NCBI GenBank assembly: GCA_029961055.1
Contig: JASBVM010000005.1
Location: 129,487-193,486 of the forward strand
Source: Bacillota bacterium
Lineage (GTDB): Bacteria > Bacillota > Sulfobacillia > JAIMAT01
Length of the DNA: 64,000 nt
Reading direction: 5' to 3'
Translations under genes and position numbers: made by a program
Notes under the pieces: generated by a model
Told to the model about the DNA's origin: nothing
Seen by the model: only the letters and a program-made list of their open reading frames with translations
Databases searched by the model: none
In this document: positions 20,454 to 45,903 of the stretch, piece by piece
Numbering within the stretch: position 1 is the stretch's first letter
Layout: each line of letters starts with the position of its first letter

Positions 20454-21347
20454 GTGCCAACCGTGCGCAAGGCGGTCATTCCGGCGGCGGGATTGGGGAC
20501 GCGCTTCCTGCCGGCCACCAAGGCCCAGCCGAAGGAGATGCTGCCCATCGTCGACGCTCCGGCCATCCAGTACGTGGTGGAGGAGATCGTCGAGGCGGGG
20601 ATCGAGGACGTCCTCATCGTCACCAGCGCCAACAAGGGTTCGATCGAGGACTACTTCGACCGCTCGCTCGACCTGGAGGCGGCGCTGGCGAACAAGGAAG
20701 GGAAGGCCGCGGAGCTGGAGATGGTCCGGCGCATCGGCGAGATGGCCAGCGTACATTACGTCCGCCAGAAGCAACCTCTGGGACTGGGGCACGCGGTCCT
20801 CTGCGCCCGCATGCACGTCGGCGACGAGCCCTTCGCCGTCCTCCTGCCCGACGACCTGATCCGCGGCGAGCCCTCGGCCCTCCGCCAGCTCCTGGAGGTG
20901 GCCGAACCGGGCACCTCGGTGGTGGCGGTCCAGCCGGTGCCGGAAGAGGAGGTCTCCCGCTACGGGGTGATCGACGGTCGGCCGCTGGGCCGGCGGAGCT
21001 ACAGCGTCCAGGCGATGGTGGAGAAACCGAAGCCGGGCGAGGCGCCTTCCAACCTGGCCATCATCGGCCGGTACGTCCTCGACGCCGCCGTCTTCGGGGT
21101 GCTGGAGAAGCTGCCGCCGGGCCACGGCGGGGAGATCCAGCTGACCGACGCGCTCCGGGTCCTGGCCGGAGAGGGGCGGGTCAGGGCGCGGGAGGTGGAG
21201 GGGGAGAGGTTCGACGTGGGAGACCGGCTCGGCTGGCTGACGGCCAACCTGCGCTACGCCCTGGACCGGCCGGATCTGGCGCCGGCGCTCCTGGACTTCC
21301 TGGAGGCGACGGTGGAGCGGGCGCGCCCGGCGGGAGGCAGGGCGTGA
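20454..21347 (+). CDS. galU: UTP-glucose-1-phosphate uridylyltransferase
   Basis: 297 residues. KAVIPAAGLGTRFLPATKAQ is the nucleotide-binding signature with the following PKEMLPI; later motifs are HYVRQKQPLGLGHAV, LLPDDLI, VEKPKPGEAPSN and GEIQLTDALR. It makes UDP-glucose from UTP and glucose-1-phosphate. It overlaps the next gene by 4 bases (GTGA), and that gene uses UDP-glucose, so the pair likely forms a small trehalose pathway. The GTG at 20454 follows GAGAGGGGGGATCC; GTG 20463 is possible. Confidence 0.94.
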   Translation: MPTVRKAVIPAAGLGTRFLPATKAQPKEMLPIVDAPAIQYVVEEIVEAGIEDVLIVTSANKGSIEDYFDRSLDLEAALANKEGKAAELEMVRRIGEMASVHYVRQKQPLGLGHAVLCARMHVGDEPFAVLLPDDLIRGEPSALRQLLEVAEPGTSVVAVQPVPEEEVSRYGVIDGRPLGRRSYSVQAMVEKPKPGEAPSNLAIIGRYVLDAAVFGVLEKLPPGHGGEIQLTDALRVLAGEGRVRAREVEGERFDVGDRLGWLTANLRYALDRPDLAPALLDFLEATVERARPAGGRA

Positions 21348-23644
21348 GCGAGGCGGCGCGGGACCCGCGGAAGGCGCGCGCGGCGACCGCGCTGGCGGGC
21401 CGGCAGCTGGTGGTGGTGGCCAACCGCGAGCCTTACGTCCACCGCCGCCGGGAGCACGGGGTGGTGGTGGAGCGGCCGCCCGGCGGCCTGGTGGCCGCCC
21501 TGGATCCGGTGCTGCGGGCGGCGGGCGGCACCTGGGTGGGCTGGGGCAGCGGCTCGGCGGACCGCGAGGCGGTCGACGCGGGCGACCGCCTCGCGGTCCC
21601 GCCGGAGGCCCCGGCGTACACGCTTCGCCGCGTCTGGCTCTCCGAGCGCGACGTGGCCGGCTTCTACAATGGCTACTCCAACCAGGCGCTCTGGCCGCTC
21701 TGCCACCTGCTGCCCTCGCTCGCCCGCTTCGAACGCCGCTTCTGGCGCGCCTACCGGCGCGTCAACGAGCGTTTCGCGCGGGCGGCGGCGGAGGAGTGCC
21801 GTCCGGGGGCGCTGGTCTGGATCCAGGACTACCACTTCGCCCTTCTGCCCGCGCTGCTCCGCCAGGAGCTGGCGCGCCGGCAGATCCGGGACGTGCGCCT
21901 GGGCCACTTCTGGCACATCCCCTGGCCGCCCTGGGACGTCTTCCGCATCGCTCCGCAGCGGACCGAGATCCTCGAGGGGCTCCTGGCCAACGACCTTCTG
22001 GCCTTCCACCTGCCGCGCTTCGCCGAGAACTTCCTGGACTGCGTGGAGCGCGAGCTGGGCGCCCACGTGGAGCGGGACCAGGGGACGGTGGAGTGGAACG
22101 GGCACCGGACGCGGGTCGCCGCCTTCCCCATCAGCGTCGACTTCGGGGCGCTGGAGGAGGAGGCGGCCTCCGCCGCGGCCGTGCGCGCCTTCCGGAGGCT
22201 CGCCCGCAAGGCCGGCCTGCTCGACCAGCGGCTGGTGCTGGGCGTCGACCGGCTCGACTACACGAAGGGGATCCCGGAGCGGATCGCCGCCGTCGACCGC
22301 TTCCTCGAACTCCGCCCGGAGTGGCGCGGCCGCTTCCGCATGGTCCAGAAGGTGAGCCGCAGCCGCAGCAGCATCCCCGCTTACCGGGAGCTGGAGACGA
22401 AGGTCAAGGAGGCGGTGGCCCGGGTGAACGCCCGCTGGGCGGAGGGGGGATGGGAGCCCATCGTCTACCTGGAGGGACCGCTTCCTCCGCACACCCTGGC
22501 GGGACTCTACCGGGCGGCGGACGTCGCCCTCGTCTCCTCCCTCCAGGACGGGATGAACCTGGTTTCCAAGGAGTACATCGCGTGCCAGGTGGACGAGCGC
22601 GGCGTCCTCCTGCTCAGCGAGCTGGCAGGGGCGGCCGAGGAGATCGAGGGGGCCATCCGGATCAACCCCTACGACGTGGAGGCGATGGCGGAGGCGATCC
22701 ACCGCGCCCTCTCCATGCCGGAGGAGGAGCGCCGCCGGCGGATGCGGGCCATGCGCGCCTTCGTCCGCGGGCACGACATCTACCGCTGGGAGGAGGAGTT
22801 CCTGACCGCCCTGGAGGAGACGGCGGCCTCCGGGGGAGGGGAGTGGCAGGACGCCTTCCTGGCGCGCCTGCGGGAGGGGCGGCGGCTGGCGCTCTTCCTC
22901 GACTACGACGGGACGCTGGCGCCGCTGGCGGAGCGGCCGGAGGAGGCCGTCCTCCTCCCCGCCGCCGAGGAGGCGCTGCGGCGGCTGGTCCGGGCGCCGG
23001 GCGGCCTGGTGGCGGTGGTCAGCGGGCGGTCGCTGCAGGACCTGCGCCGGCGGCTGCCCATCCCCGGCTTGGCGCTGGTCGGCAACCACGGTTTCGAGAT
23101 GGAGTGGGAGGGACGGCGGCGGATCCACCCGCTGGCCGAGGAGGCGCAGGCCAAGGTGGAACGGGCCGTCGAGCTGGCGCGGATCGGGCTCCGGGAGGTC
23201 TCCGGGGCGCGCGTGGAGGCCAAGGGGCTGACCGCGAGCGTCCACCTCCGCCGGGTGGCGCCCGAGGCGGTGGAAGGCGTGCGCGCCGCGGTGGAGGCGG
23301 CCGTCCGCGAGGCCGCGCCCGAGGGGGGCCTGGTGATCACGCCCGGCAAGGAGGTCCTGGAGATCCGTCCGGATGTCGCCTGGGACAAGGGCCGCGCGGT
23401 CCTCGCCCTGCTGGAGGAGGTGGCGGGGCCGGGGTGGCCGGCATGGGCTGTCCTCTACGCCGGAGACGACGTCACCGACGAGTCGGCCTTCCGCCTGCTG
23501 CCGCCGCCGGCCTTCACGGTGCGGGTGGGCCGGGAGGAGGCGCCCGAGGGCGGGATGACCGCCGCCCGCTTCCACGCCGAGGGGCCCGAGGCCGTCGCCG
23601 GCTTCCTGGGCCGCGTCGCCGATCAGCTGGAAGGAAATGGCTAA
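21344..23644 (+). CDS. otsAB: Bifunctional trehalose-6-phosphate synthase / phosphatase (OtsA-OtsB fusion)
   Basis: 766 residues. The first about 490 form a GT20 glycosyltransferase: [66 protein letters not shown]. The rest is a HAD phosphatase: [37 protein letters not shown] and [12 protein letters not shown]. It would join UDP-glucose to glucose-6-phosphate and then remove the phosphate to give trehalose, an osmolyte and thermoprotectant. Bacterial otsA and otsB are usually separate genes; fused forms are known in some archaea, Bacteroidetes and eukaryotes. A related GT20 product such as glucosylglycerol cannot be excluded. The GTG at 21344 overlaps galU. Confidence 0.88.
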
Positions 23645-25877: not shown

Positions 25878-26366
25878 GTGGGGGTGAGCCACCTGCCGTT
25901 GCGCATCGAGATCCCCGGGCGGAGTCCGATCGAGATCGAACACGTCGTCTTCGACTTCAACGGCACGCTGGCCGTCCACGGGGAGCTGGTGCCCGGCGTC
26001 CGCCCGCGCCTGGCGGCCCTGGGCGAACGGTGCCAGGTGCACGTGGTTACGGCCGATACCTATGGCTCGGTGTCCGGGCAGCTCCGCGGCCTTCCCGTCC
26101 ACGTGACGGTGCTGGGCGGCGGCGAGGGGTCGGCCGCCAAGCGCCGGCTCCTGGCCAGCTTGGGAGCCGATCACTGCGCCGCCGTCGGCAACGGCCGGAA
26201 CGACCAGGCGATGCTGGAGGTGGCCGAGCTGGCGGTGGCGGTGCTGGGCGGCGAGGGACTCTACCCGCCCCTGCTGCAGGTGGTCGACCTGGTGGTACCC
26301 AGTCCGGTGGACGCCATCGACCTCTTCCTGGAACCCAGGCGATTCGCGGCCGGTCTCCGCCCCTGA
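25878..26366 (+). CDS. HAD-superfamily hydrolase (soluble P-type ATPase-like)
   Basis: 162 residues. The HAD motif I VFDFNGTLAVHGEL (N in place of the second-position D residue in DxDGT, giving DFNGT), motif II VVTADTYG, and motif III/IV LLASLGADHCAAVGNGRNDQAML are visible. The pattern resembles COG4087, small proteins related to the phosphorylation domain of P-type ATPases. They are predicted phosphatases, with no assigned substrate. The GTG at 25878 follows TGGAGGG very closely; GTG 25884 is an alternative with better spacing. It is a single-gene unit between divergent and convergent neighbours. Confidence 0.75.
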   Translation: MGVSHLPLRIEIPGRSPIEIEHVVFDFNGTLAVHGELVPGVRPRLAALGERCQVHVVTADTYGSVSGQLRGLPVHVTVLGGGEGSAAKRRLLASLGADHCAAVGNGRNDQAMLEVAELAVAVLGGEGLYPPLLQVVDLVVPSPVDAIDLFLEPRRFAAGLRP

Positions 26367-26386: not shown

Positions 26387-26400
26387 GCCCGCTAGCGGGC
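26387..26400. repeat. Perfect 14-base palindrome at the end of the MBL gene
   Basis: GCCCGCTAGCGGGC is self-complementary and overlaps the stop codon (26392-26394) of the minus-strand MBL gene, between two convergent genes. A further GCGGGCGGGC follows. It could act as a short hairpin in either transcript; no T-run is present. Confidence 0.45.
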
Positions 26401-27423
26401 GACATAGCGGGCGGGCGAGCCCGGGAGAAGGCGGACGCGCCCGTGCCGCTGGAGCCAGCGCAGGTGCGCCAGCGTCTCCCCCAGGGCGAAGAGCTGCTGC
26501 TCCTCGGCCAGGTCGGGGGAGAAGAGCTGGGGGAGCAGCTCGTAGGCGGTGGCGGGTCGCCCCTCCACCAGCCGGCGGCAGAGCTCCAGGCGCCGGCGGT
26601 GGTGCGCCTGGAGCTCCCGCAGGCGACCGGCCAGGTCCTCCAGCGAGCTGCGGTGGGCAGGCAGCACCCGCCGCACGCGAAGACGTTCCAGCCTCTCCAG
26701 GGAGCCGAGGTACTCCTCCAGAGGCTCCACGCTTCCGGAAGGCCAGAGGCTGATGTTGGGCGTGATCCCTCCGAGGACGTGGTCGCCGCTCAGGAGGAAG
26801 CCCGGCTCGGGCAGGTGGACCACCAGATGGCCGGCCGTGTGGCCGGGTGTCCAGAGCGCCACCGCCGGATGCGGCCCGAAGCGGAAGGCCGCCCCGTCAT
26901 GGAGCGGCTCGAGGTGCGAGATCGGATGGGACGGCTTGGCCAGAAAGGCGTTGGCGGCCATCAGCCCGTCCACCGCCTCCTCCGGGATCCCGTTCTCCAC
27001 GAGGTGGCGCCGCAGCCGCCGGCTGGCGCCGGCCAGCCGGGAGGAGGAGGTCGTGCTGGCCTGCCGGATCAGGGGGAGCTCCCGGGCATGGGCCAGGACG
27101 CGGCCGCCCCACCGCTCCACCAGCCAGCCGGCCAGCCCCAGGTGGTCGGGATGGAAGTGGGTGACCACCACCCGCTCCAGCACGCCGGCGGTCCAGCCCA
27201 GAGCCCTCGCCGCCTCCTCCCAGAGGCGGCGGGCGGGCGGCCAGTCGAATCCCGGGTCGAGGACGCTCCAGCGCCCGTCGCCGGCCTGGGCGAGGTAGCT
27301 GTTGGTCCAGCCCAGCGGGCCGGGCATGGGCGGGCGGAGGACCAGGAGGCCCGCCTCCAGGCGTTCGAGCCCCGGATCGGGTCGGGAAGCGGGCCCTTCC
27401 GCGCGCTGCCGCCCCGGGCTCAC
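26392..27423 (-). CDS. MBL-fold metallohydrolase
   Basis: About 343 residues. The metal-binding motif THFHPDHLGLAGW (HxHxDH), GHTAGH and LSGDHVLGG define a metallo-beta-lactamase hydrolase of the glyoxalase II / RNase Z-like group. A C-terminal helical extension (HRRRLELCRRL ... LAHLRWLQRHGRV) looks like the LACTB2-type domain, a winged-helix-like tail. The substrate could be a thioester or lactone; it is not known. The GTG at 27423 overlaps the stop of the upstream nitrilase-like gene by 4 bases; an earlier GTG at 27438 is possible. Third gene of a minus-strand operon with manC. Confidence 0.83.
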   Translation of the reverse strand: MSPGRQRAEGPASRPDPGLERLEAGLLVLRPPMPGPLGWTNSYLAQAGDGRWSVLDPGFDWPPARRLWEEAARALGWTAGVLERVVVTHFHPDHLGLAGWLVERWGGRVLAHARELPLIRQASTTSSSRLAGASRRLRRHLVENGIPEEAVDGLMAANAFLAKPSHPISHLEPLHDGAAFRFGPHPAVALWTPGHTAGHLVVHLPEPGFLLSGDHVLGGITPNISLWPSGSVEPLEEYLGSLERLERLRVRRVLPAHRSSLEDLAGRLRELQAHHRRRLELCRRLVEGRPATAYELLPQLFSPDLAEEQQLFALGETLAHLRWLQRHGRVRLLPGSPARYVAR

Positions 27424-28328
27424 AGCTGGATCGTCCACGGGTACTCGTCCACCACCGGCTCCAGGTCCAGCACCGACATCGGGATGCTGAAGCGGCCGCC
27501 GTCGCGGTCGGTGAGCTCCGCCATGCGCACGAAGTTGGGCGCGACCTCGTCCGGATAGACCACCGTGTTCCTCCGGAAGAGGCGCATGCGCGCGAAGGCG
27601 TCAGGAAGCGGACCGGGCGTCCCCTGGGCGGCGCGCACCTCCTCCACCCGGCGCGCCACCGGGGGGCGGCCGGGCCTCTCTTCCTGGTAGGCGTTGACGA
27701 AGACGGTCTCCTGCCAGAGCGGGCCCCGGAAGGCCGCCAGCACCTCGCGCACCGCCCGCTCGGCGCCGCGGCCGAAGTTGCCGGGGATCACCGCCACCTG
27801 CGCCCGCAGCACCTCCGGATCGGCCACGCTGAGGAGCGGCAGGTAGACGTCGCTGCAGATCAGGAAGAGGGCCGTCAACGGCTCCTCCCCGCCGGGCGGC
27901 CGCAGGCGGACGCGGTGGAGCCGGCGGTACGGCCGGACGCCGATCTCCGCGAAGCGGGGGTCGTAGTGCCGCTGCTCGAAGGACTGGACGGTCACCTTGG
28001 CCTGCGGGGTGTGCAGCTCGCCGTGCCGCGTCACCACCACCAGCGTGTTGTAGGCGGCGCCCGGCTCGGCGCCCGGCAGGCGGCCTCCCACCTCCTCCGG
28101 GACCAGATTGAGGGTGGTGATCAGGTTGAGGCCGAGGCGGCGCGCGGCCTCGCTCAGGGCGGCCAGCGCCGCCCTCGAGGCGTCGCGGGTGTAGGCCAGG
28201 TACTCGGGGAGGACGACGCAGGCGCCTGCCGGCGCGTCAAGGCGCTCCAGGCGCTCCAGCGCCTGGCCGAGCACCTCGGGCTCCGGCCCCATCCTGTAGG
28301 CCAGCGGCAGCCAGACCGGCCCGCTCAC
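27420..28328 (-). CDS. Carbon-nitrogen hydrolase (nitrilase-superfamily-like) protein
   Basis: 302 residues. The three catalytic positions of the nitrilase fold can be placed: Glu in VVLPEYLAY, Lys in TPQAKVTVQ and Cys in FLICSDVYLP, followed by AQVAVIPGNFG. Members hydrolyse amides or nitriles, or transfer acyl groups. Sequence around each residue is unusual, and the C-terminal part (GRFSIPMSVLDLEPVVDEYPW) is not one I recognise, so this is a divergent member. It lies between manC and an MBL hydrolase, overlapping both by 4 bases (GTGA), so the three are probably made together. The substrate is unknown. Confidence 0.62.
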   Translation of the reverse strand: MSGPVWLPLAYRMGPEPEVLGQALERLERLDAPAGACVVLPEYLAYTRDASRAALAALSEAARRLGLNLITTLNLVPEEVGGRLPGAEPGAAYNTLVVVTRHGELHTPQAKVTVQSFEQRHYDPRFAEIGVRPYRRLHRVRLRPPGGEEPLTALFLICSDVYLPLLSVADPEVLRAQVAVIPGNFGRGAERAVREVLAAFRGPLWQETVFVNAYQEERPGRPPVARRVEEVRAAQGTPGPLPDAFARMRLFRRNTVVYPDEVAPNFVRMAELTDRDGGRFSIPMSVLDLEPVVDEYPWTIQL

Positions 28329-29521
28329 GGCCGGCCGGCCCCCGCTCCCGGTGCCGCCCGGCCCGCCGCGGGCGCCGTGGGTGCCGCCCCCCAGGGCGCT
28401 CCCGCCTCGGGCGCCGGGTTCTCCGCCGGCGGGCGCTCGCCCACATCGTCCACCAGCCGCCCGTAGCCCTGGCGCCGGAGGGCGGCCAGAAGCTCCTTCC
28501 AGTCCGCCGCCCGCGCCTTGGGTGCCACCACGGTGACGCGCGGGGTATGGACGGTGAGCAGGTCCTGCGTGCCGAAGGCGATCAGCATGTGCCCCGCTTC
28601 CTCGTTGTGGAGGGTGCAGCCCGTCGCCGCCAGCGCCAGCCCCTCCCCCCAGACGCGGTTCCCGCGCTCGTCCGCCTCGGTCAGCCGGTCCAGCGCCGCC
28701 CAGCTGCCCACGTCGTCCCAGGTGAAACGGCCCGGGACCACGGCTACGTCGCCGCCCAGGCGCGCCTCGTCCTGCATGACGCCGAAGTCGATGCTGATGG
28801 CCGGGAGCCCGGCGAAGAGGGCGGCCCTCTCCTCGGGCGGCGCCTCCCAGGCTCGCTCCAGACCTTCGCGCAGCGTGGGCAGCCGCCGCCCGATCGCCTC
28901 CAGGATGCTGCGCGCCTGCCAGACGAAGATGCCGCTGTTCCAGAGGTAGCTCCCTTCCTCCAGGAAGCGGAGCGCCGTCTCCGTGTCCGGCTTCTCCACG
29001 AAGCGGTCCACCCGATAGGCGCCCTCCACCGCCCCCAGCGGCCCGCCCAGGTGGATGTAGCCGTAGCCGGTCTCGGGCCGGGAGGGCCGGATGCCCAGCG
29101 TCACCAGCGCCCCCCGGCGCGCCGCCTGGACGGCCCGGTCGACGGCCAGCGCGAAGGGATCCAGGTCGGAGAGGTAATGGTCGGCGGGCATCATCACCAG
29201 GACGGCCTCCGGGTCGGCGGCCAGCAGATGGAGCGCCGCCCAGCCGATCCCCGCCGCCGTGTCGCGGCGGACCGGCTCCAGGATCAGGCGCCTCGCCACC
29301 AGCGCCGGAGGAAGCTGGTCCCTCAGCAACGCCTCGTACTCGGCGGCGCTGGAGACCCAGATCCGCTCCTCCGGCACCAGGGCGCGCGCCCGCTGGAGCG
29401 CCTCCTGGAGGAGCGTCCGCTGCCCGAAGAGGCGGATGAACTGCTTGGGCACCGTGGGCGTCGAACGCGGCCAGAAGCGCTCCCCCCGGCCACCCGCCAG
29501 GATGACCACATGCTCGGCCAT
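28325..29521 (-). CDS. manC: Mannose-1-phosphate guanylyltransferase
   Basis: 398 residues. EHVVILAGGRGERFWPRST, then PKQFIRLFG, is the nucleotidyltransferase signature; LILEPVRRDTAAGIG, MPADHYLSD, FVEKPD, SGIFVW and FTWDDVGSW are typical of GDP-mannose pyrophosphorylase. It makes GDP-mannose for glycans. There is no C-terminal phosphomannose isomerase domain; instead the last about 40 residues are an Ala/Pro/Gly-rich tail. The ATG at 29521 follows GTGGAGGTGGAACG. It is first in a minus-strand operon and divergent from the SpoIIP fusion gene. Confidence 0.92.
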   Translation of the reverse strand: MAEHVVILAGGRGERFWPRSTPTVPKQFIRLFGQRTLLQEALQRARALVPEERIWVSSAAEYEALLRDQLPPALVARRLILEPVRRDTAAGIGWAALHLLAADPEAVLVMMPADHYLSDLDPFALAVDRAVQAARRGALVTLGIRPSRPETGYGYIHLGGPLGAVEGAYRVDRFVEKPDTETALRFLEEGSYLWNSGIFVWQARSILEAIGRRLPTLREGLERAWEAPPEERAALFAGLPAISIDFGVMQDEARLGGDVAVVPGRFTWDDVGSWAALDRLTEADERGNRVWGEGLALAATGCTLHNEEAGHMLIAFGTQDLLTVHTPRVTVVAPKARAADWKELLAALRRQGYGRLVDDVGERPPAENPAPEAGAPWGAAPTAPAAGRAAPGAGAGRP

Positions 29522-29714: not shown

Positions 29715-31790
29715 CTGCCGGACGTCTGGCCCGTCGGCTCGATCCTGGCCGTGGGCGCCCTGGCCGCCCTCTCCCTGGGGGCGGGCCAGCACGTCCTCGA
29801 GGCCCTCGGGCTGGCTCCACGCCAGGCCTGGCTTCTCCTCTCCCTGCTGGCGGTCAGCGGCTGGATCCCTTCCGTCGCCTGGGGGTCGGTCCGGTTCAAC
29901 CCGGCCGCCACCCTGATCCCCCTGGGGATCAGCCTCTACCTCCTGCTGGGGGCCGACCGGCGCGAGGAGAAGGCGCATGCGGCCGTCGCCTCGGTCCTCA
30001 CCCTCTCCGTGGTCTTCGCCGGCGACCAGCTCCTGCCCGCCGACCCCGGTGCGGGGCAGGGCGCCCTCTCCACCTTCGCCGACCCGACCTGGGCTCCGGG
30101 CCTGGCGGGCGGGCTGCTGGGCGCGCTCCTGGGCGGCTCCGTACGGGGCGCCTACGTCGCCGCCACGCTGGCGGTGCTGGGGAACGACCTGGTCTCGGTC
30201 TTCCTGGCCTCGCTGGTGGCGGTGCCCGGCGCCCTCGCCGCCCTGGGCGGGGCGGGGGTCCTGGACAGCACGGTGATCGCCGGCTTCGTCGCGGTCCTCC
30301 TGACCGAGGGCTTCCGCTGGCTCCGCGCCCGCCTGCTGCCGCCGGCCCGGGGGCGACGCCGACGGCTGGCCCGGCGGCCCGCGCGGGCGTGGAGGCGGTA
30401 TACGCGCCGCCCGCTGCCCGCAGCGGGCGGTCCGGGGCGGGGCGGGCTCAGCCTGGGCGTGGCGCTCGTCCTGCTGGTGGGCGGCTGGTGGGCCGGGCCT
30501 TACGGGCCGGACGCGCTGGCCCGGGGAGGGCCCTGGGGGGACGAGCGGCTCTCCGGGCCGCCCGTGGCCCTGCGGGCTCCGTCGGCCCTGCTCTGGCGGA
30601 CCGGGCGCCTGCTCGGCGCAGGCGACGCCTGGTCCTCGCCGCGGGGACGCTGGTACCGGGTGGTGCGGGTGGAGGGGGGGACGGCCTGGGCCGAGCCCGT
30701 GGAGGCACCCCGCCGTCCGGGAAGCCCCCTTTCCCGGGCCGGACCGGCGGGAGGGCAGGCACCCGGCGGCCGGGAGGCGGGGAGACGGCGCGTCGCGGTG
30801 GGGGCGCCGCCCCGCCAGCTGCGCGTGGGCCTCTACGTCACCCACAACGACGAGGCGTACACCGCCGGCCGAGGCGAAGCGGGGCCCCGGACCGTGGAGG
30901 AGGCGGCCAGCCACCTGGCTCGCAGGCTGGCGGCGGAGGGACTGGCCGCCCGCTTCGACCCGAGCCTCCACCTTCCCCACGATCGGGGCGCCTACCGGCG
31001 TTCGCGGCGGAGCGCCCTCGCCCTCCTGGCCCGGGGAGGAAGCTCCATCCTCCTGGACGTCCACCGCGAACTGGCGCCCCAGGGAGCGGTCGACGTCCCC
31101 GGGCTGGGACGGGCGGCTCCGGTGGTGCTGGTGGTCGGGCGGGGCGACCCGCACTACGCGGCCAACCTGGCCTTCGCCCGCCAGCTGCGGGAGCTGGCGG
31201 CCGGCCGTTATCCGGGGCTGGTGAGCGGCATCCTCCTGACCGCCGGGGATTACAACCAGGACCTCTCACCCTTTGCGCTCCTCCTGGAGCTGGGTGCCTC
31301 CGACAGCCGCCCCGCGGAGGTGGACCGTTCGATCCGGGGCCTGGCCGCGCTCCTGGCCGACTGGAGCCGCGCGCGGCAGCCTCCGGAGGGCGGCCGCCGA
31401 GCCCCCGCGGCGGGGCCGGCCCCGGCCTATCGACCCGCTCCGGCGGCGAGGCGGGCGGCCACGGAGGCGGGCACCCAGTTCATCCCGTCGGGCACGTCCA
31501 GGTGGGTGGCGTCGTCCCCGGGAACGCCGGTCACGCCGAACTGCCAGACGATGGAGTCGCTCGCGGGGTCGATGACGACGACGCGGTGGTCGGCGTCGTC
31601 GTTGACGGCGACCAACCCGTTGGGCAGGCGGATGGCCAGGGAGGGCAGGCGGAGCCTGCCCGCTCCCGAGACCGGGGCGTACCGCCAGAGCACCTTCCCG
31701 CTGGTCGTCACGCGCAGCACCTGGCCGGGGTCGGTGTACCCCGCCACCAGGATGCTGCCGTCGGGCAGCAGCTGCGCGTCGGAGGGGTAG
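29715..31790 (+). CDS. spoIIP: Membrane protein with DUF1614-like N terminus fused to stage II sporulation protein P (SpoIIP)
   Basis: About 691 residues. Residues about 8-210 have six likely membrane helices (for example AWLLLSLLAVSGWIPSVAWG, then VLDSTVIAGFVAVLLTEGF) and resemble DUF1614. A basic linker and one more helix (GVALVLLVGGWWAG, about 250) lead to a SpoIIP domain at about 370-555: GLYVTHNDEAYT, SSILLDVHREL, RYPGLVSGILL, DYNQDLSPFALLLELG. SpoIIP is an amidase/endopeptidase that thins septal peptidoglycan during engulfment. The best Shine-Dalgarno (GGGGAGGTGGG) points to CTG 29715; GTG 29553 and GTG 29751 are alternatives. The frame continues 364 bases into the antisense of the next gene; these last about 120 residues are probably not conserved. 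Confidence 0.72.
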   Translation: MPDVWPVGSILAVGALAALSLGAGQHVLEALGLAPRQAWLLLSLLAVSGWIPSVAWGSVRFNPAATLIPLGISLYLLLGADRREEKAHAAVASVLTLSVVFAGDQLLPADPGAGQGALSTFADPTWAPGLAGGLLGALLGGSVRGAYVAATLAVLGNDLVSVFLASLVAVPGALAALGGAGVLDSTVIAGFVAVLLTEGFRWLRARLLPPARGRRRRLARRPARAWRRYTRRPLPAAGGPGRGGLSLGVALVLLVGGWWAGPYGPDALARGGPWGDERLSGPPVALRAPSALLWRTGRLLGAGDAWSSPRGRWYRVVRVEGGTAWAEPVEAPRRPGSPLSRAGPAGGQAPGGREAGRRRVAVGAPPRQLRVGLYVTHNDEAYTAGRGEAGPRTVEEAASHLARRLAAEGLAARFDPSLHLPHDRGAYRRSRRSALALLARGGSSILLDVHRELAPQGAVDVPGLGRAAPVVLVVGRGDPHYAANLAFARQLRELAAGRYPGLVSGILLTAGDYNQDLSPFALLLELGASDSRPAEVDRSIRGLAALLADWSRARQPPEGGRRAPAAGPAPAYRPAPAARRAATEAGTQFIPSGTSRWVASSPGTPVTPNCQTMESLAGSMTTTRWSASSLTATNPLGRRMAREGRRSLPAPETGAYRQSTFPLVVTRSTWPGSVYPATRMLPSGSSCASEG

Positions 31791-32701: not shown

Positions 32702-32829
32702 TACGTCTTCCCCGTGCTCACCCGGCATGGGGACACCCGGGGACGAGGGGAGAAGCTAAGATGGTCACGATGGACATCCCGGGGGAGCGGGGCCCCGTCC
32801 GGGTCCAGGTCAAGGGGGGATCGAGGAAG

Positions 32830-34377
32830 ATGATGCCGCCTTTTGTCAACGAGCCGGTCACCGACTTCCGCGCGCCGGAGAGGCGGGAGGCCATGGAGCG
32901 CGCGCTGGCACAGGTCCGCTCGGAGTTCGGCCGGCGGTACGACCTGATCATCGGCGGGCGGCCCGTCCGCACCCAGGCGGAGATCCGGTCGACCAACCCG
33001 GCTCGGCCCGACCAGGTCGTCGGTCTCGTGGCGCGCGCGGGGCGCGCGGAGGCGGACCAGGCGCTGGCGGCGGCGGAGGAAGCCTTCCGCACGTGGCAGC
33101 ACTGGGACGCCAGCGCCCGGGCGCGCGTGCTCTGGAAGGCCGCAGCCATCATGCGTCGCCGGAAGCTGGAGCTGGACGCCTGGGAGGTTTACGAGGCGGG
33201 GAAAAGCTGGGTCGAGGCCGACGCGGACGTGGCCGAGGCCATCGACTTCCTCGAGTATTACGGCCGCGAGATGGTCCGCCTCGCCCAGCCGCAGGAGCTG
33301 ACCCGGATCCCGGGCGAGGACAACGAGAACTACTACATACCGCTGGGCGTCGGCCTGATCGTCCCGCCCTGGAACTTCCCGCTGGCCATCCTGACCGGCA
33401 TGACCAGCTCGGCCGTGGTCGCGGGCAACACCGTCATCCTCAAGCCGGCTTCGGCCACGCCCGTGATCGCCGCCAAGTTCATGGAAGTGATGATGGAGGC
33501 GGGGATCCCCGACGGTGTGATCAACTTCCTGCCCGGTCCCGGCGGCGAGGTGGGCGACTACCTGGTCCAGCACCCGCGCATCCGCTTCGTCAGCTTCACC
33601 GGCTCGATGGAGGTGGGCCTCCACATCAACGAGGAGGCGGCCAAGGTCCGTCCCGGCCAGCGCTGGATCAAGCGGGTGGTGGCGGAGATGGGCGGCAAGG
33701 ACGCCATCATCGTCGACGAGACGGCCGACCTCGACGACGCGGTCAACGGGATCATCACCTCCGCCTTCGGCTTCCAGGGACAGAAGTGCTCCGCCGCCTC
33801 GCGGGTGATCGCTCTGGAGCCCGTCTACGACACGCTGCTGGAGAAGCTGGTGGCGGCGGCCAAGGCGATCCGGGTGGGCCGGCCCGACGACCCCGAGACC
33901 TTCATGGGTCCCGTGGTGGACGAGGGCCAGTACAAGAAGATCCTCCAGTACATCGACATCGGACGTTCGGAGGGGCGGCTCGTGGCCGGAGGCCGCGCCA
34001 TCCCGGGCGAGGGCTGGTTCATCGAACCCACCGTCTTCGCCGACGTGCCGCCCGACGCCCGCATCGCGCAGGAAGAGATCTTCGGCCCGGTGCTGGCGGT
34101 CATCCGCGCCCGCGACTTCGACCACGCGCTGGAGATCGCCAACGGCACGGTCTACGGCCTGACCGGCAGCGTCTACAGCCGGAACCGCGAGCGGCTGGAG
34201 AGGGCGCGGCGCGAGTTCCACGTCGGCAACCTCTACTTCAACAGGAAGTCGACCGGCGCGCTGGTGGGCGTCCATCCCTTCGGCGGCTTCAACATGTCCG
34301 GCACCGACTCCAAGACCGGCAGCCACGACTATCTGCTCCTCTTCATGCAGGCCAAGTCCGTGTCGGAGAAGCTCTGA
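32830..34377 (+). CDS. rocA: 1-pyrroline-5-carboxylate dehydrogenase (RocA-type)
   Basis: 515 residues from 32830. It oxidises P5C (glutamate semialdehyde) to glutamate with NAD, the last step of proline and arginine breakdown. [36 protein letters not shown], the catalytic Glu in [11 protein letters not shown] and Cys in [11 protein letters not shown], and [10 protein letters not shown] are all present. Family homology starts near the ATG at 32830, after AAGGGGGG; an earlier ATG at 32761 also has a good Shine-Dalgarno and would add 23 residues. No proline dehydrogenase or arginase gene is next to it. A GC hairpin lies between it and the convergent thioesterase. Confidence 0.94.
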
Positions 34378-45814: not shown

Positions 45815-45903
45815 TCTCCGCTCAGAGCAAACCCGGCGAAAGCCGGGGACGCAAAGCCGCGGGCCCTCGTCGAGGAACGGCAGGGCAGCCAGGTTGCCGG
45901 AGA
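45815..45903 (+). promoter_or_regulatory. Class I cyclic-di-GMP riboswitch (GEMM-I) controlling the flagellar operon
   Basis: The segment contains AGAGCAAACC, a P2 stem CCGG closed by a GAAA tetraloop, then GGGACGCAAAGCC, which is invariant in class I c-di-GMP aptamers, and a P3 arm ending GGCAGCCAGGTTGCC. The outer stem P1 pairs TCTCCG (45815-45820) with CGGAGA (45898-45903). These match the Vibrio Vc2 aptamer (from memory) in order and spacing. An intrinsic terminator follows 23 bases later and flgB starts 167 bases downstream. The element senses the second messenger c-di-GMP, which usually switches cells from swimming to attachment. Confidence 0.93.

Follow-up and report, generated by a model that had tools for sequence, protein, structure and literature searches.

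Does the tight coupling of three neighbouring genes, whose products do not suggest a common pathway at first sight, mark a functional unit, or only a local arrangement of otherwise separate enzymes? The window (the whole stretch of 64,000 nucleotides analysed here) carries on its minus strand manC, a gene for a 302-residue protein and a gene for a metallo-beta-lactamase (MBL)-fold hydrolase, as three open frames at the positions where an earlier note on this DNA had placed them (Table 1). That note had also taken the tight coupling to suggest a functional unit, perhaps in making or modifying a mannose-containing cell-surface compound or a small amide/lactone. We consider it probable, with some room for other readings, that the trio is a genus-limited operon in which a general manC is followed by two separate hydrolases, added to it within this lineage: a divergent amidase of the nitrilase superfamily and a two-metal MBL hydrolase.

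Table 1. Features of the three-gene locus (columns: feature, window position, strand, description, basis or remark).
manC	28325..29521	-	398 aa, mannose-1-phosphate guanylyltransferase without the isomerase half	NTP_transferase and TIGR01479 matches
Putative divergent nitrilase-superfamily protein	27420..28328	-	302 aa, GTG start	E42, K111, C158
MBL-fold hydrolase, TTHA1429 type	26392..27438	-	348 aa from the conserved start	
GTGA overlap, manC stop and start of the 302-aa gene	28325..28328	-		
Likely 19-base overlap, 302-aa gene and MBL gene	27420..27438	-		position common to all three species

The trio is flanked by a divergent gene with a SpoIIP domain (29751-31790, +) and by a convergent small gene that has no Pfam match (25878-26366, +), so the unit consists of manC, the 302-aa gene and the MBL gene. 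Gene order and boundaries are identical in the three species of the genus that were compared, namely that of the window and its congeners G001 and G002, and the closed three-gene unit proposed before is thereby borne out. The block around the trio is likewise syntenic within the genus, however, which makes conservation of the trio there weak evidence for a shared pathway. A promoter scan and a terminator scan of the locus each gave 0 hits (0.0 and 0.6 expected, respectively); judging from what is known of such gene families, the three genes would be co-transcribed as an operon.

The two junctions fared differently. At the manC/302-aa junction the overlap of stop and start is kept in three of three species, reading GTGA in the window, TTGA in G001 and GTGA in G002. 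A second GTGA junction had been read at 27420-27423; its letters are present in the window but are not conserved, and neither congener has a start codon at the matching position. The start able to reach the conserved MBL domain lies at the site matching 27438, which is GTG in the window, GTG in G001 and ATG in G002. In G001 this GTG is the sole start codon ahead of the domain, while in G002 the next candidate, a TTG, lies only within it. Because the congeners have no other start codon ahead of the MBL domain, the overlap in all three species is likely to measure 19 bases (the MBL protein would have 343 aa if read from 27423). Conservation of the start at 27438 is by itself modest evidence, since the site falls inside the codons of a conserved Pro-Trp of the 302-aa protein; the absence of an alternative start carries more weight.

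Overlaps of exactly 4 bases are found in 11 of the 51 adjacent same-strand gene pairs in the window, as called with a simple gene caller; this count includes both trio junctions as first described, and would fall to 10 if the MBL gene starts at 27438. The calls come from a codon-usage script trained on five window genes, three of them the trio genes, which called no gene in locus L108 and few in L104. Being common in the window, such overlaps say little about function. Together with the genus-wide synteny of the flanking block, they lend some weight to the idea, which overlaps with our main reading and which we hold to be possible but somewhat unlikely, that a compact genome has simply packed these genes together and that they share no meaningful co-regulation. 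Against this stand the closed ends of the unit and the survival of its order over a synonymous divergence (dS) of about 0.4-0.6 for the trio genes between the species of the genus. Purifying selection acts on each of the three genes among the three species, with dN/dS of 0.23-0.24 for manC, 0.26-0.36 for the 302-aa gene, which fits a working protein, and 0.35-0.47 for the MBL gene.

The product of the first gene has a nucleotidyltransferase domain with what we take to be the motif words of ManC, as in a single-function ManC. It matches Pfam NTP_transferase with 124 bits, and its best NCBIfam model is TIGR01479 (252.6 bits, cut-off 372.95). The latter match stops at position 349 of the 467 in the profile; the C-terminal isomerase half of the bifunctional GMP-PMI is absent here, and the protein misses the cut-off for this reason. 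These matches agree with the earlier naming of the gene as manC. In contrast to known ManC proteins, the window protein ends in a low-complexity tail, rich in Pro, Ala and Gly (28328-28427, -), that differs among the three species when compared by eye. At a threshold of E 1e-20 each genome of the genus has one manC match, and this sole copy found is therefore probably the general GDP-mannose source for the whole cell. As to neighbouring steps, type I mannose-6-phosphate isomerase (PF20511) was found in none of the three genus genomes, and PF02878 has two matches in each of them, a model that leaves PMM, PGM and GlmM not told apart.

The MBL protein has Lactamase_B and B_lactamase-like_C domains (Pfam). 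The HxHxDH motif and the later His, Asp and His, which we take to be the metal-ligand set of the MBL fold, are complete in the window protein and in both congeners. Its nearest solved chain is 2zo4, a 'Metallo-beta-lactamase family protein' (E 4.8e-45, residues 22-342) and presumably TTHA1429, and together these results bear out the MBL hydrolase that had been proposed from the letters. The window protein shares its domains and metal motifs with the TTHA1429 type, and differs from it in genetic setting, its gene sitting behind manC and the 302-aa gene. A passage of PMC6267482 describes the function of TTHA1429 as unknown. The score against NF053820 (Strvi_7410 family MBL hydrolase), 145.9 bits, is below the cut-off of 525 bits.

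How the genes are placed in other genomes of the class bears directly on the question of a shared pathway. Matches at E 1e-20 are found for manC in 87 of 154 class genomes and for the MBL gene in 72 (that in G055 is 41% identical). Both are present in 54 genomes, where 40.7 would be expected (Fisher p 2e-5, uncorrected for kinship). This excess speaks for a link, with the caveat that related genomes are not independent and that not every MBL match is an orthologue. However, the two are side by side only in the three genus genomes. Of the other 51, 44 have them on different contigs, which in draft genomes does not prove a large distance, and in 7 they are separated by 170 kb to 1.74 Mb. Outside the genus, no nitrilase or MBL gene stands alongside manC in 27 distinct loci, and no nitrilase or manC gene stands alongside the MBL gene in another 27. 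These are what is left of 31 manC and 32 MBL loci after setting aside 4 and 5 duplicates, drawn from 84 and 69 further matching genomes and most of them carry some 1.5 kb of flanking sequence, which is shorter where a contig ends. The neighbourhood survey once suggested for this locus thus gives a divided answer: the trio is adjacent in two of two congeners, but beyond the genus in none of the genomes examined. Full-text literature searches found no paper on an operon of nitrilase, GDP-mannose pyrophosphorylase and metallo-beta-lactamase, nor on a nitrilase-superfamily protein with a mannose-1-phosphate guanylyltransferase gene cluster.

The 302-aa protein is narrower still in its distribution. 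Among 61 relatives and among the 154 class genomes it is found in three each time, the same three, namely its own genome and two congeners. A phylum sample searched at E 0.01 gave matches in 3 of 398 genomes, of which one, its own genome, is credible; the two others are short (E 0.006 and 0.009, one with an internal stop) and were taken for chance. The relatives, class and phylum samples overlap. No relative was found in plasmids or phages (tblastn, 0.01), PHROGs gave no match, and none of 58 pattern-matching stretches in viral contigs was confirmed. Two 8-residue patterns, which reach close relatives only, retrieved 15 stretches from a set of genome contigs that may lack records near the window, and the one confirmed came from a record of the same genus. 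Counts were 0 of 391 in the class of G368 and 0 of 12 in the class of G188, neither of which holds a positive control. As judged from these sequence searches, whose profile part covered the window's phylum, relatives of the protein appear, so far, to be confined to one genus. The window's own genome has two further nitrilase-family matches besides this protein.

Taken together, these results leave the step from tight coupling to a pathway unsupported: the adjacency is confined to the genus, 4-base overlaps are common, manC is the sole copy found, 51 other class genomes have their manC and MBL homologues apart, and no relative of the 302-aa protein was detected outside the genus. We think it likelier that the three genes share expression but no pathway.

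A single pathway for the synthesis or trimming of a mannose-containing compound, such as a surface glycan, a glycolipid or a solute, is in our estimate unlikely. In such a pathway ManC would supply GDP-mannose, the nitrilase-like protein would remove or transfer an amide and the MBL protein would open an ester or lactone. The closed unit in three of three species, the overlap retained at the manC/302-aa junction, the purifying selection on all three genes and the co-occurrence of manC and MBL above chance, kinship uncorrected, are also to be expected of it. However, the unit contains no glycosyltransferase, the trio is not adjacent outside the genus where examined, and a manC that is the sole copy found is probably not dedicated to one product. 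Moreover, the two dedicated uses of GDP-mannose that were tested were not found. Mannosylphosphoglycerate synthase (PF09488) has no match in the window's own genome (0/1; 1 of 14 control genomes is positive), and GDP-mannose dehydratase (TIGR01472) has weak matches in all three genus genomes, none of them above the cut-off. A more specific version, in which the 302-aa protein, as a new branch of the nitrilase fold, and the MBL protein act in turn on a GDP-mannose-derived metabolite in this genus, with manC co-translated so that supply matches use, seems to us quite improbable. The kinds of enzyme are ordinary, and it is their arrangement that is, as seen so far, local to one genus. None of the trio proteins matched any anti-phage family of PADLOC at E 0.1.

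We return to the favoured reading, a general manC with two separate hydrolases behind it, and first to the nature of the 302-aa protein. Pfam CN_hydrolase (PF00795) scores it at 15 bits (E 0.016), below the cut-off of 23.2, which is a score threshold and not a biological feature, and no NCBIfam model matches it. A profile-profile comparison with 20 class nitrilases gave a score of 49.9 and a probability of 89.8% over residues 13-188; none of 100 column shuffles exceeded 19.4, and the reversed control scored 18.1. Run on a set of three loci, an HMM of 20 class nitrilases matches the three genus proteins with E values between 5e-5 and 3e-4. The nitrilases derive from 30 loci, from which 22 open frames were kept by length and motif; removal of two on the wrong strand left 20 for the profile, and of one N-terminal fusion 19 for the alignment. 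When these 19, to which the 302-aa protein is 13-27% identical, were aligned with the three genus proteins (n = 22), E42 and C158 were invariant and K111 was present in at least 90%. All three residues are kept in all three genus proteins, in the order Glu-Lys-Cys, and align with the columns that we take to be the catalytic triad of the family.

Structure prediction, the check that had been suggested for the fold, points the same way, with models that are weak. The first model, built from the three genus proteins only, has a pLDDT of 44.1. Its search of the PDB gave 550 matches at E <=10, none at 0.001 (best E 1.5e-3), and the best 50 of these 550 are all entries of the nitrilase superfamily, most by title; we count Lnt, N-terminal amidase and a pyrimidine-degrading enzyme as members. 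Adding the 19 nitrilases to the alignment raised the mean pLDDT to 57.7, with ten-residue means of 72-92 over residues 11-110 and 53-75 over 111-200, and values below 50 over residues 202-302. This second model matches the PDB down to E 1.3e-6; among the matches listed, TM-scores are low, at about 0.36-0.48, and Z reaches 13.2 (208 residues, rmsd 3.7). Its likeness to nitrilases is partly built in, because its alignment was seeded with them. A PDB sequence search with the single protein gave no match, and the three proteasome subunits retrieved with the alignment (E 0.84-0.85) were taken as chance.

The predicted fold and the aligned residues support a nitrilase fold with a Glu-Lys-Cys triad and, despite the missed Pfam cut-off, argue for a divergent member of the nitrilase superfamily, in keeping with the divergent Glu-Lys-Cys hydrolase that the earlier note had recognised. 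The protein would share motif order and fold with superfamily members such as formamidase AmiF, the NitN amidase and Nit2, and differs from them in its long C-terminal stretch, which is strongly conserved in the genus (the whole protein being 78-83% identical between species) and is modelled at pLDDT below 50. That it is a nitrilase-fold scaffold or regulator without catalysis is very unlikely, since the low Pfam score and the poorly modelled C-terminal third, which would suit such a role, are set against a triad kept and aligned in all three genus proteins.

In the favoured reading, then, the sole manC found would provide the general GDP-mannose supply, and the two hydrolase genes would have become attached downstream of it in this lineage. 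By analogy with its family, the 302-aa protein would be a C-N hydrolase, most likely an amidase, in which C158 would attack the carbonyl carbon with E42 as general base, K111 would steady the intermediate, and ammonia or an amine would leave. The MBL protein, again by family, would use two metals to hydrolyse an ester, thioester or lactone. The finding alone does not change the knowledge of either fold or of GDP-mannose metabolism; it provides a conserved yet sequence-divergent member of the nitrilase superfamily that escapes the models of Pfam and NCBIfam at their cut-offs, and a small operon as the context in which to seek its substrate.

Several other features of the window were recorded. 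In the divergent flanking gene, the SpoIIP domain covers residues 357-536 of 679, and the long N-terminal part looks membrane-bound by eye. An aldehyde dehydrogenase gene (32761-34377, +) has a dS of 0.11 between G000 and G001, against 0.33-0.40 for the other two pairs and 0.35-0.64 for six neighbouring genes, and a recent exchange between species is possible. At 20454-23644 (+) a galU-like nucleotidyltransferase gene shares a GTGA overlap with a gene for a fused trehalose-6-phosphate synthase/phosphatase (Glyco_transf_20 and Trehalose_PPase domains). Finally, a c-di-GMP-I riboswitch (45816-45901, +; 64.4 bits, gathering 35) lies 200 bases ahead of a gene run that looks flagellar by eye.
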